In this document: positions 7,654 to 23,235 of the stretch, in pieces
How the letters are laid out: the number at the start of each line of letters is the position of its first letter
Numbering within the stretch: position 1 is the stretch's first letter
Assembly: GCA_029260715.1 (NCBI GenBank)
Contig: JAJDCS010000009.1
Coordinates: forward strand, 1-64,000
DNA: 64,000 nucleotides
DNA from: Phycisphaeraceae bacterium
GTDB taxonomy: Bacteria > Planctomycetota > Phycisphaerae > Phycisphaerales > Phycisphaeraceae
Direction of reading: 5' to 3'
Notes under the pieces: model-generated
Seen by the model: only the letters and a program-made list of their open reading frames with translations
What the model was told of the DNA's origin: nothing
The model's database searches: none
Program-made: the position numbers and the translations under genes

Positions 7654-8688
7654 TTATTCGATCCCCCGCTCCGCCAGCCACCGCTCCGCGTCGATCGCCG
7701 CCTTGCAGCCCATGCCCGCCGCGGTGACCGCCTGGCGATACACAGAGTCCGCCACGTCCCCCGCAGCGAACACACCCTCCACGTTCGTCGTCGATCGGTA
7801 AGGGTCTTTAAGTTTGATATACCCCTTGTCATCCAGATTGAGCTGGCCATCAAGAAATCCGGTGATCGGCGTGTGGCCGATCGCCATGAACAGCCCGCTC
7901 AGCGGCAGCTCGCTTTCTTCGCCGCTCTGCGTGTCTTTTAGCTTCACCCCGGTAATCTTGTCTTGCCCCAGCACGTCGACGGGAACCTTGTTCCAAAGGA
8001 TCTCGATCTTCTTATTGTTGATCGCCCGGTCCTGCATGATCTTGCTGGCACGCAGCTTGTCGCGGCGGTGGATCATGTACACCTTGCTAGCAAACTTGCT
8101 CAGGTAAGTCGCCTCCTCCACCGCTGAATCGCCCCCGCCCACCACAGCCAACTCTTTATCGCGGAACATAGGCAGCGCCCCGTCGCACACCGCGCACGCG
8201 CTAACCCCGCCGCCCGACTGAGCCAACCGCTGCTCGTTCTCCAAGCCCAGCCAATTCGCCTTCGCGCCCGTGGAAATGATCACCGCGTGCGACCGACACT
8301 CAAAACCATTGTCGCCTTTAATGACAAACGGACGCTGCGACATATCCACCGACGCAACGCTCTGAAACGACGTAAACAACCCGCCGGTGACCTCACTGCC
8401 GACCTTCGCTCCGTCGTCTGTCACCACCCGTGTGTCGAACCGCATCGCCTGCTCAAAAAACAACTGCATCATCTCCGGACCCATAACACCCTTGGGAAAA
8501 CCGGGATAATTCTCCACGTCGGTGGTCAGCATCAACTGCCCACCCGGCAGAAGGTCCTTGCCCGTCGCCCGCCCGGGGAACACCAGCGGGCTTAAGTTCG
8601 CCCTCGCCGCGTAAATCGCAGCCGTCCAACCCGCAGGCCCCGACCCAATAATCGTTACACGCTCAACGCTGTTGCTTGTATCACTCAT
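7654..8688 (-). CDS. trxB: Thioredoxin-disulfide reductase
   Basis: This is an FAD/NADPH flavoenzyme that reduces thioredoxin in the cytoplasm. It is about 344 aa from the ATG at 8688 (a further ATG at 8706 is less likely). The N-terminal FAD-binding site is [18 protein letters not shown]. The substrate loop is [18 protein letters not shown], and the redox-active CAVC (residues about 165-168) is followed by DGALP. The NADPH-binding motif is [12 protein letters not shown]. The C-terminal FAD contact is [20 protein letters not shown]. All expected residues are present. It is transcribed alone, with the prepilin gene 26 nt upstream on the same strand. Confidence 0.97.
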
Positions 8689-8713
8689 AGTCACGCATTG
8701 TAGCAAAGCAGCG

Positions 8714-9487
8714 CTACCGCAGGTCGTACACGCTGTTGTCTTCCGACAAAAAGCCCGTGCCAGGCGCGATTAAAGCCTGGCTGGCAGCGTCGGTGCTGGT
8801 GTAAGGGTCGCCGTGTGCGCACACATGACCGTCGCAATACGCCACACTCGTCGCCCCGCCAAGGTGGCGGTACCCCTGCGTGCCCGCGTTCCGCGTGGCA
8901 ATCTGAGGCTCACCCACGTTCGGGAACGGCGAACGCATAAATTTATTCGCGCCCGCGCTGTACTGGCCATCTCCAAATATCGCCGTGCCCGCGGGATCGC
9001 CCACCTGATCAGACCGAGCCGAAGACACAATCGCCGTCTGGCCGATCTCGCGGTACCCACCGATGTAACTAACGTTGTAGTTGTAACCCGTATAAGGGTC
9101 GCCCGATGAGTTCGCCGAGCCGTGGTACGACGGGCACTGATGCACCGCAACGCTTGTGGAACCCTGCCACAAAAAACCGGGAGTCACCTTTGTCGGGTTG
9201 ATGAATTTGTCTTTAAAAAAATCCCACTCCTTCGCCCCGTCCGCCGGGTTGCCGTAGTCGTAAGCCAGGGGGTAATACCCCCGCCGGTCCACCGCGTGAA
9301 TCTCCGCCGCCACCGCCAATTGACGCAAGTTGCTCATGCACACCGCGCTGCGCGCCCCCTCCTTCGCGTGTCCCAACACCGGCAGCATCACCCCGATCAG
9401 CACACCCGTGATCGCCACCGTCACCAGCAACTCAATCAGTGTAAAAGCTCGGTGTCGTGATTGATGTGTATGACGCATTTCAATCAT
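8714..9487 (-). CDS. Prepilin-type N-terminal methylation protein with C-terminal DG-H signature
   Basis: This 257-aa secreted or membrane protein belongs to the large planctomycete pseudopilin family. The N-terminus [20 protein letters not shown] is a type IV prepilin signal cleaved before Phe, followed by the hydrophobic stalk. The C-terminal part has the family's DG-type motif ([15 protein letters not shown]). Such proteins are processed by a prepilin peptidase and may form type II secretion-like or pilus-like fibres. Their individual roles are unknown. No other secretion genes are adjacent. Confidence 0.88.
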
Positions 9488-9532: not shown

Positions 9533-9570
9533 CTACGAGCCGCGCCCGTAAGGAAGCGGTCTCTTCTCGC
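9533..9570 (+). repeat. Dispersed palindromic repeat, copy 3 (short form)
   Basis: The sequence is CTACGAGCCG, a reduced centre CGCCCGTAAGG, then AAGCGGTCTCTTC. It is shorter than copies 1, 2 and 6 but shares both borders. The 3' flank TCTCTTC is shared with copy 1. It lies between the prepilin start and the end of the PEP-CTERM gene. Confidence 0.65.
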
Positions 9571-9622: not shown

Positions 9623-10567
9623 CTACACACCCCGCCGCCCCCGCCACCTCAATAGCGCACACGCCCCCAGCCCAAGCAGCACCGCCCCCGACGGCTCGGG
9701 CACCACGTCCGCGAACGCGTCCACCTCCGTGCTGTGCGCGTCGCCCGCGTCTTGGTACACCCTCACGTATTGAATCCACCCCAGCCCCGTCACGGAGATG
9801 TCCACGCCCGTGCCGCCGCCGCTGCCGTTGTACCCAGCCAGCACCTGCTGATACGTCTTGTCGACCGGGTCAAAAGCTGGATCGACCGGCACCGTAAAAT
9901 CGCTGCCCGCCGTCCCGTCAAAAGCGAACGCGTCGCTGGCGTCGGTGTAGCCCTCCGTGGGGAAAGCGTCATCGGCAAACACACCCACCACCTCTCGCCA
10001 ACTGCCCGGCTCGCCCGTTTGGCTAACCTGCACCCGCCCCCGCTCATGATGCACCTCACTAACCACGCCCCCCTGGTCAACCAGCAACGCGTTGCCGAAG
10101 ATCAACAAGTCAATCCCGAAGTGTACGCCAAGCGGGTTGTCTAAAACGGGCTGGTCAAACCGAACGACCAACTCCCCGCCCGCACCAATCGACACCAACT
10201 GGTCGGGCATCCACGCCGGGTTGAACGACGTCACCTGCTCCGGGGCCCCCGCAAACCCCGTGTCATGCGAAGGCTCGCCCAGCGCCGCCGCCGGGTCGGC
10301 ATACCCCCCCAACCCGTTGCTGCCCTGTGTGTACGCGATCACCTCATCCGCCCACGAGTCGAACACCTCAGCCTTCGCCACCACCGCCCCGCCCGTCAAC
10401 CCCACCACCGACACACCGCAAACCAGCCAACGTCGTAGAGCATTTTTAAACTTGGTGTATGGCCCCACGACGAGCCGCGACCGTAAGGGAGCGGTCACGC
10501 ATGAGGCAAAGGACCGATCTCGCAACCCAACCGCCGTGCACGAAATAGCAAAACGTTCCGATGCCAT
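9623..10567 (-). CDS. Secreted PEP-CTERM protein under cobalamin-riboswitch control
   Basis: The protein is about 314 aa from the ATG at 10567, chosen because GGAAGGAG lies just upstream. It has a long basic leader, a hydrophobic signal segment (LVCGVSVVGLTGGAVVAKA), a beta-rich body and a C-terminal sorting signal. The sorting signal is VPEPSG, a hydrophobic helix and a final RWRGRRG, recognised by exosortase-type systems. The body contains FGIDLLIFGNALL, RVQVSQTGEPGSWREVVG and GLGWIQYVRVYQDAG. This pattern recalls surface proteins with FGN and YVR motifs found near cobalamin riboswitches, which is a family memory, not a search. A cobalamin riboswitch lies directly upstream on the same strand, so the protein may bind or scavenge corrinoids; that function is inference. 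Repeat copy 4 is embedded in the leader-coding sequence. Confidence 0.8.
   Translation of the reverse strand: MASERFAISCTAVGLRDRSFASCVTAPLRSRLVVGPYTKFKNALRRWLVCGVSVVGLTGGAVVAKAEVFDSWADEVIAYTQGSNGLGGYADPAAALGEPSHDTGFAGAPEQVTSFNPAWMPDQLVSIGAGGELVVRFDQPVLDNPLGVHFGIDLLIFGNALLVDQGGVVSEVHHERGRVQVSQTGEPGSWREVVGVFADDAFPTEGYTDASDAFAFDGTAGSDFTVPVDPAFDPVDKTYQQVLAGYNGSGGGTGVDISVTGLGWIQYVRVYQDAGDAHSTEVDAFADVVPEPSGAVLLGLGACALLRWRGRRGV
10466..10505 (+). repeat. Dispersed palindromic repeat, copy 4 (short form), inside a coding leader
   Basis: The sequence is CACGACGAGCCG, centre CGACCGTAAGG, then GAGCGGTCACGCATG. The 3' flank CACGCATG is shared with copy 6. Read on the minus strand it is open and encodes part of the N-terminal leader of the PEP-CTERM protein, about residues 22-35 after the ATG at 10567. 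Confidence 0.7.
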
Positions 10568-10582
10568 AAAAACTCCTTCCGC
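10567..10582 (-). promoter_or_regulatory. Ribosome binding site deciding the PEP-CTERM start
   Basis: On the minus strand GGAAGGAGTTTTT immediately precedes the ATG at 10567. This is the only strong Shine-Dalgarno in the leader and is the reason for rejecting the longer frame starting at 10621. Confidence 0.7.
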
Positions 10583-10625
10583 CCCGATGCGCGCGGAGCG
10601 ATAACCCCTATGTAAAAACACCCGC

Positions 10626-10716
10626 CCTCGCGATTGAGTTCACAGTGAAGCTACGGAAAAGAAAACTGCCCAGGGGCAATGAACAGTCGAAATCCGCAGC
10701 GTCCCATCTCGCGAGG
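10626..10716 (-). promoter_or_regulatory. Possible riboswitch expression platform
   Basis: Between the aptamer and the start codon two 8-nt segments are perfectly complementary: positions 10709-10716 and 10626-10633 (CCTCGCGA pairing with TCGCGAGG). The downstream arm is followed in the transcript by GGCGGGTGTTTTTAC, a U-rich tract. This could be a terminator or antiterminator helix linking cobalamin binding to expression. The fold was not computed. Confidence 0.4.
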
Positions 10717-10724
10717 ACACGGAA

Positions 10725-10960
10725 TCCGACAGGCAGGTCTTCCGGCTTAGGGCACACCCGGTTGGCCTTCCCATCAAGCCCGTTGCAGGCCTGACAGTGG
10801 CGTGGTCAACCAGGCGCCGGCCCCGATTCATGCATCGGGGCCACCCATCACGGCGGCGCGTCCGCGGGGGACTGCCCAGCCTTAACCCCGGCACACGCCG
10901 AGGCAATCTCCGTTAGGAGGCTGGGGACACCCCACTTCCCTATTCACCCTTAGCACCGGC
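10725..10960 (-). ncRNA. Cobalamin riboswitch (AdoCbl/B12 aptamer)
   Basis: On the minus strand, in order, are: GGTGC near 10953, AATAGGGAAGTGGGGTG, a long variable arm, GCCACTG (about 10798-10804), GGGAAGGC (about 10765-10772), and the B12 box AAGCCGGAAGACCTGCCTG (about 10730-10748). This order and spacing match the cobalamin aptamer core. It lies ~160 nt upstream of the PEP-CTERM start codon on the same strand and downstream of ispH, so the PEP-CTERM gene is its only plausible target in cis. The known behaviour of the class is repression when cobalamin is bound. Confidence 0.93.
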
Positions 10961-11090
10961 ATCAATCAGTAGCCGGCGCCTCGGGAACCTGTCGCTTGCC
11001 TTATACCCCTCCCGCCACACCCTTGCAACCGTGTGGAAAACCAGCCCCCCGGAAGGCGGTTTCAGAGTGATGGACGCAACGCCGTATGCC

Positions 11091-12080: not shown

Positions 12081-12120
12081 GCCACGAGCCGCGACCGTTA
12101 GGGAGCGGTCCGGGTGGCAT
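12081..12120 (+). repeat. Dispersed palindromic repeat, copy 5 (short form)
   Basis: The sequence is CCACGAGCCG, centre CGACCGTTAGG, then GAGCGGTCCGGGTGG. It lies in the divergent intergenic region between ispH and bioA. Its centre is nearly identical to copy 4 and its 3' flank resembles copy 2. Confidence 0.7.
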
Positions 12121-22317: not shown

Positions 22318-23235
22318 ATGACCCGTCAACGGGGCAACCAGCATTGTCAGGGATTCACGATCACCGAAATCTTGGTGGGCGTAGCGATCACTACATTAAT
22401 GGTCGCGCTCATGCTCCCGGCCGTGAACCGGTCTCGCAGCGAGACACGCACGCTTCAAGGCCTGAACAACCTTCAACAAATCGGCCAAGCCGTTCATCTC
22501 TACGCCGTGGATAATTACAACACGCTGCCGATTGGCTACTGGGACGGGAACACCCCCAGCGGTGTCATCGGAGTACCGGCAAAAGAAGGCGTCGAGACGG
22601 ACTGGCTTCTAACGATCAACGCCTACCTCACCGGCGCCCCTAACAATTACAAAGAGATCGCCGACCTTGGTGACGAATCTGCCATGCTGTCGATCTTCAG
22701 AGACCCCAACGCCGACGTCCCCGATCAGGGCCTGTACCACTACTTGGGGCACCCCCTGCTGATGCCTGATCAATCGATCGTGGAACGCAAAGACCCAACG
22801 GAAACCATATACGACAGTGTCTTTAAGCACGTCCTTCCATACAAGCTTTCAAGATTCCGCCGGCCCCACGAGGTGGTCCTTGTGATGGACGGGATCCAAG
22901 ACGCTGGGCATCAAGTAAATTTTACTTGTTACCGCGCGCTTGCTGAGAACATTGAGAACGAAATGTTCCTTCCGCCGAAAAATGACGCCATGGGAGACTT
23001 TAACGGCTACTACGACCCGGCGGCCAACGACAATAACTCGGTGATTAACCCAGGGCCGAATAATATAAGTGCTACAGCCAATATACGCTGGCGGCAGCGC
23101 AACGACACCGAGGCGAACTTCTTGTTCTCTGACGGACACACGGAAACACTGCGGCAAGCAGACAGACATCCAAATGGCGCCCCCGTATCTGGCACCGGCG
23201 AAGTCTTTAGGCGCCACTTCAGGGTCGATAAGTGA
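22318..23235 (+). CDS. Prepilin-type N-terminal methylation protein with C-terminal DG-H signature
   Basis: This 305-aa pseudopilin-like protein has the N-terminus CQGFTITEILVGVAITTLMV. It fits the prepilin signal G/F-T-x-x-E followed by a hydrophobic helix. The C-terminal signature is ANFLFSDGHTETLRQADRHP. It is the same family as the protein at 8714-9487 but clearly diverged. It may be assembled or secreted by a type II/IV-pilus-like machine not encoded in this window. Confidence 0.87.
   Translation: MTRQRGNQHCQGFTITEILVGVAITTLMVALMLPAVNRSRSETRTLQGLNNLQQIGQAVHLYAVDNYNTLPIGYWDGNTPSGVIGVPAKEGVETDWLLTINAYLTGAPNNYKEIADLGDESAMLSIFRDPNADVPDQGLYHYLGHPLLMPDQSIVERKDPTETIYDSVFKHVLPYKLSRFRRPHEVVLVMDGIQDAGHQVNFTCYRALAENIENEMFLPPKNDAMGDFNGYYDPAANDNNSVINPGPNNISATANIRWRQRNDTEANFLFSDGHTETLRQADRHPNGAPVSGTGEVFRRHFRVDK

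Follow-up and report, generated by a model that had tools for sequence, protein, structure and literature searches.

The window, a 64,000-nucleotide stretch of a Phycisphaeraceae genome, very probably carries a B12-repressed corrinoid-capture operon on its minus strand, in which a cobalamin riboswitch precedes the genes for a PEP-CTERM version of BtuH and a dedicated pseudopilin. The first-pass annotation had judged the riboswitch target to be unlike a B12-transport gene, a view that is not supported: the protein is a homologue of BtuH, which is a B12-transport accessory of riboswitch-controlled Bacteroides operons (PMC8941943). The target is thus of a known kind and makes no exception to the rules for B12 riboswitches. 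The novelty lies in the protein's PEP-CTERM form, in its being paired across the order with a dedicated pseudopilin, and in the presence of this system in genomes where no TonB receptor was detected. In the non-subscription literature searched we found no paper that connects B12 uptake with the cobalamin riboswitches, PEP-CTERM proteins or pseudopilins of planctomycetes.

The riboswitch aptamer occupies positions 10715-11007 (minus strand), where cmscan matches the full RF00174 model (1-189) at 55.8 bits, above the curated gathering cut-off of 31.5 (E 3.6e-11; Rfam 15, 64 kb window); no other Rfam match reaches the gathering threshold in the 64 kb window. A cobalamin aptamer upstream of a protein with a signal peptide and a PEP-CTERM signal had been noted in the first-pass annotation, with an Infernal search proposed as the check, and the significant covariance-model score bears this out. 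Its placement at 10567-10960 was off: the aptamer lies somewhat further upstream, and 10567 is the ATG of the gene. Compared with the RF00174 consensus, the match covers the full aptamer and differs by large peripheral insertions; the best aptamer in the order scores 104 bits.

Between aptamer and start codon lies a leader (10568-10714, minus strand) with a Shine-Dalgarno sequence, GGAAGGAG, at 10573-10580. The leader fold is not unusual (z -1.1), and it includes a weak terminator-like hairpin at 10664-10688. An intrinsic terminator was considered as the expression platform and rejected, there being just this one weak hairpin here and, by stricter criteria, none in 65 homologous leaders against 0.4 expected. 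Because those 65 leaders have no such terminator, translational control of the BtuH-like gene is more likely than transcriptional control. Regulation of the leader by cobalamin is predicted from the riboswitch family, and its sign would be repression.

Matches to the mature part of the protein were found in 179 of 251 genomes of the order, its own included and nearly always in single copy, and RF00174 in 235 of the 251, mostly once. Among the matches listed, 82 genomes have entries for both gene and riboswitch, and in 80 of these, the window included, a cobalamin riboswitch precedes the gene on the same strand at a distance of 112-368 nt (median 228); 68 further gene-bearing genomes stand outside this count, their riboswitch either not being among the matches listed or having no match. 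A second set, with overlapping organisms but drawn and tested differently, comprised 80 named loci, 74 of them testable: a cobalamin core and B12 box occur 123-464 nt upstream in 65 of the 74, and on the opposite strand in none. Just three other matches to core plus B12 box were found in 1.4 Mb, all at Pirellulales loci where the riboswitch precedes further genes belonging to this operon. By both counts the homologues' genes do follow cobalamin riboswitches, an association that the first-pass annotation had put forward for checking; its description of the arrangement as unusual for a planctomycete has to be reversed, as by the first count it is the rule in the order. Lacipirellula limnantheis, a cultured relative, carries the operon as well (L163). 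Five loci whose titles name Caulobacteraceae, Deltaproteobacteria, Leptolyngbya, Bacteroidia and Limnohabitans (L099, L105, L107, L127 and L128) contain a gene for the planctomycete BtuH-type protein and seem to be mislabelled.

The first gene (9623-10567, minus strand) encodes a secreted protein of 314 amino acids whose identity as a BtuH homologue is well supported by sequence comparison and by the predicted structure. A profile of 33 relatives found one meaningful PDB chain, 8blw_B (Bacteroides thetaiotaomicron BtuG1), at residues 435-525 (E 9.5e-5), which fall in the fused BtuH domain of that protein (PMC10404256). This link by sequence needed the wider A1 profile and an intermediate, L089: direct phmmer of the 314-aa protein against the PDB found nothing, and BtuH was missed when the narrower A2 profile was used by itself. 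L089 is a distant relative in a riboswitch operon of the same order; plain phmmer connects it with BtuG1 (4.5e-21) and BtuH2 (7biz; 9.3e-14), and hhalign gives a probability of 99.3% for its alignment to the family profile, which spans 203 columns. The AF2 model of the window protein (pLDDT 92.8) has the same two structures as its best PDB matches, 8blw (Z 13.5, 24% identity over 151 residues) and 7biz (Z 13.3, 27% over 147); the next structural match has Z 9.8, with PAPP-A and CBM32-type domains at 9.8 and below.

BtuH2 is a very tight B12 binder, required for efficient B12 transport, and its reported B12 contacts are Gln333, Asn399, Phe401, His476, Tyr510, Trp511 and Trp577 (PMC8941943). These were placed by counting along the L089-BtuH2 alignment with the published residue numbers. 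Only Asn399, which touches the B12 phosphate (PMC8941943), is clearly kept, as a family-invariant asparagine (residue 159 here). At the position of Phe401 the window protein has leucine, whereas most relatives have phenylalanine; neither Gln333 nor Trp577 is conserved in the main clade of the family, and the shorter proteins either lack the loops that carry His476, Tyr510 and Trp511 or cannot be aligned there. The 314-aa protein therefore does not carry the BtuH2 set of contact residues, and because most are not kept, it may hold a corrinoid differently or not at all; for the same reason we call it a BtuH homologue with a probably BtuH-like function rather than a proven functional member of the family, and B12 binding is what we infer from that kinship.

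The fold is a CBM32/discoidin-like jelly roll, and a B12-repressed surface protein built on it could have a different function, for instance in adhesion or in the binding of polysaccharides. We consider this unlikely: CBM32 and F5/8-type domains do match the model (Z 8 to 9.6), and the poor conservation of the BtuH2 ligand contacts would agree with such a role, but the H domain of BtuG1 and BtuH2 are clearly the best matches by structure and by sequence, and the linkage to cobalamin riboswitches is nearly universal.

Taking the protein as a BtuH homologue, the closest known counterparts are BtuH2 (7BIZ) and the H domain of BtuG1 (BtuGH, 8BLW) of B. thetaiotaomicron, to which it is tied by profile, intermediate sequence and fold. 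BtuH there is also encoded in a cobalamin-riboswitch operon and secreted towards the cell surface. The planctomycete protein differs in having a PEP-CTERM tail in place of the lipoprotein signal of BtuH, in lacking a PKD or propeller domain within its own chain, and in having shorter ligand loops with most of the reported contacts not conserved; its operon, unlike that of B. thetaiotaomicron, has no btuB and has a pseudopilin gene adjacent. BtuJ (DUF4465; IPR027828, PF14717) is also a secreted B12-binding jelly-roll protein from B12 operons, but the 314-aa protein has no match to PF14717 and groups with BtuH. ZepA, a PEP-CTERM exoprotein of zinc acquisition that occurs in Planctomycetota too, is likewise nutrient-regulated and scavenges a scarce nutrient (PMC10957091); it concerns zinc and Zur regulation, and no kinship with the 314-aa protein was found or is claimed.

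The N-terminus of the protein is signal-peptide-like, and its C-terminus consists of PEP, a hydrophobic helix—modelled by AF2 at residues 229-245 of the mature part—and arginines. The scores for PEP-CTERM are sub-threshold (Pfam 17.7 versus 20.7 bits, NCBIfam 14.5 versus 16). Exosortases are present in all 61 genomes of the order that were searched, with two in the window's genome. The predicted location of the protein is the cell surface.

A dispersed genomic repeat, recognised in a DNA search of the window's own genome, is contained in frame in the 5' portion of the gene's coding sequence (10436-10558, minus strand), within its first codons. It recurs at 48 other genomic places, the longest copies being 113-123 bp at 79-88% identity; its core is ACGAGCCGCGACCGTAAGGGAGCGGTC, and it lengthens the BtuH-like protein ahead of the signal peptide. 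Further copies flank the operon at 9535-9561 and 12084-12110. The repeat, taken with an aptamer that scores below the best in the order, could be read as a sign that the riboswitch is degenerate, or its linkage to the gene accidental, a repeat having been inserted into the gene start. We regard this as highly improbable: the full-model score is well over the gathering cut-off, Shine-Dalgarno sequence, start codon and open frame are all intact, and the linkage is kept in 80 genomes.

The second gene of the operon, missed by the first-pass annotation, encodes a pseudopilin (8714-9487, minus strand) 135 nt beyond the BtuH-like gene and on the same strand. It carries a prepilin methylation motif (N_methyl, 30.3 bits versus a cut-off of 21.2) and a weak DUF1559 match, and its AF2 model has a pilin-like N-terminal helix at residues 4-54; against the PDB the pilin helix alone is matched, the globular part having no clear match. 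A gene for a pyridine nucleotide-disulphide oxidoreductase of thioredoxin-reductase (TrxR) type follows close behind (7654-8706). Prepilin-motif genes lie within 3.5 kb downstream of the BtuH-like gene in 45 of 66 named loci, whereas the same loci have none on the opposite strand and two upstream. The window pseudopilin matches the operon pseudopilins of relatives at up to 153 bits over its length, whereas another pseudopilin in the window (22318-23235) matches them at the N-terminal helix only; by these sequence comparisons the operon pseudopilins are an orthologous set distinct from the latter. Co-transcription with the BtuH-like gene, and a role in the same process, are what this arrangement would imply.

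Twenty regions were read in detail, and in these a PQQ-like propeller protein, a pseudopilin or both typically come after the BtuH-like gene. In three loci (L085, L088 and L089) the first gene after the riboswitch encodes another secreted, probably propeller-type protein. The first-gene PEP-CTERM/dockerin-tailed proteins of these three and of L049, L055 and L056 look propeller-like by eye and are possibly BtuG-like; none of the six matches a Pfam propeller family. One genome of the same family (G039) has, in one run, a riboswitch, a dockerin-tailed PEP-CTERM protein (probably propeller-type), a DUF4465 protein (E 5.8e-32) with a PEP-CTERM-type tail, and a pseudopilin. DUF4465 proteins bind B12, among them one from the planctomycete Mucisphaera calidilacus (PMC13398666).

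The window's genome has a second cobalamin riboswitch (L001 1501-1776; G000:C10:15839-16114), followed at about L001 1781-2671 by a secreted protein with a PEP-type C-terminus. This protein belongs to a family, here called family B, with no match in Pfam or the PDB. Assembly genes (PilM and PilB-like) follow about 3 kb beyond the locus. In Pirellulales a pseudopilin, family B and a BtuH homologue stand together behind one riboswitch, which ties the two riboswitch targets of the window's genome into one system.

The protein might capture corrinoids while the pseudopilin is a mere type II secretion or pilus subunit serving export or display, with no part in uptake; we think this quite possible, at somewhat below even chances. 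DUF1559-type pseudopilins are abundant in planctomycetes—the one at 22318-23235 is a second in the window—and a PEP-CTERM protein must have some way of crossing the outer membrane. Type II/IV assembly genes, moreover, lie near the operon in one relative (G134) and near the second riboswitch of the window's genome. Against this, the operon pseudopilins form an orthologous set apart from the other window pseudopilin, and pseudopilins stand behind a cobalamin riboswitch in distant orders too, which would be needless for a generic subunit.

Members of the order appear to depend on imported corrinoid. The MetH activation domain and a FecCD (BtuC-type) permease are each found in 80 of 81 genomes, and CbiC, used as the single marker of corrin synthesis, in none of the 81; we accordingly read the sampled members as apparent corrinoid auxotrophs that need import. 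In the window's own genome a Peripla_BP_2 gene directly precedes the FecCD gene, both being families that also serve haem and siderophores. Cobalamin is too large for ordinary porins. TonB plug domains are present in 34 of the 81 genomes but in none of the 22 sampled from sister family f2 and not in the window's genome, from which the TonB barrel family is absent even at E 1. A strong Plug match occurs in 4 of 40 genomes with the BtuH-like gene versus 20 of 41 without it (p 0.0002), an association that follows phylogeny, so that a negative relationship between the gene and TonB receptors is only suggestive.

Corrinoid capture, the role offered in the first-pass annotation, is the best reading of the operon, drawn from BtuH homology and riboswitch linkage. 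By this mechanism, high intracellular cobalamin would bind the aptamer and lower downstream expression, as expected from the riboswitch family; at low cobalamin the BtuH-type protein would be made and exported, its PEP-CTERM tail would be processed by an exosortase, and the protein would stay at the cell surface or outside it and bind corrinoids there. The dedicated partner pseudopilin would display the binder or help the corrinoid through the outer layers, and the corrinoid would then pass by a BtuF/BtuC-type transporter to methionine synthase. A bolder proposal, which we rate as rather improbable, is that planctomycetes lacking TonB receptors use PEP-CTERM binders (BtuH-like proteins, propellers, DUF4465 and family B) to pass corrinoid on to a B12-regulated pseudopilus dedicated to this task, which would transport it inward much as competence pseudopili transport DNA. 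The capture reading extends the Bacteroides idea of surface B12 binding to an apparently auxotrophic environmental order with a different anchoring, and makes testable how cobalamin enters Gram-negative cells without a detectable TonB receptor.

In another genome of the same family (G031), genes for a TonB receptor and ExbB come after the riboswitch, and downstream of them there is, as in the window, a TrxR-type gene. This arrangement suggests that the locus may hold either a TonB receptor or the BtuH/pseudopilin pair. Three genomes of this family (L090, L091 and the window) have a TrxR-type gene downstream of their B12 locus, and the first genes of these loci differ: a TonB receptor in one, a propeller-like protein with DUF4465 in another, and the BtuH-like protein in the third.
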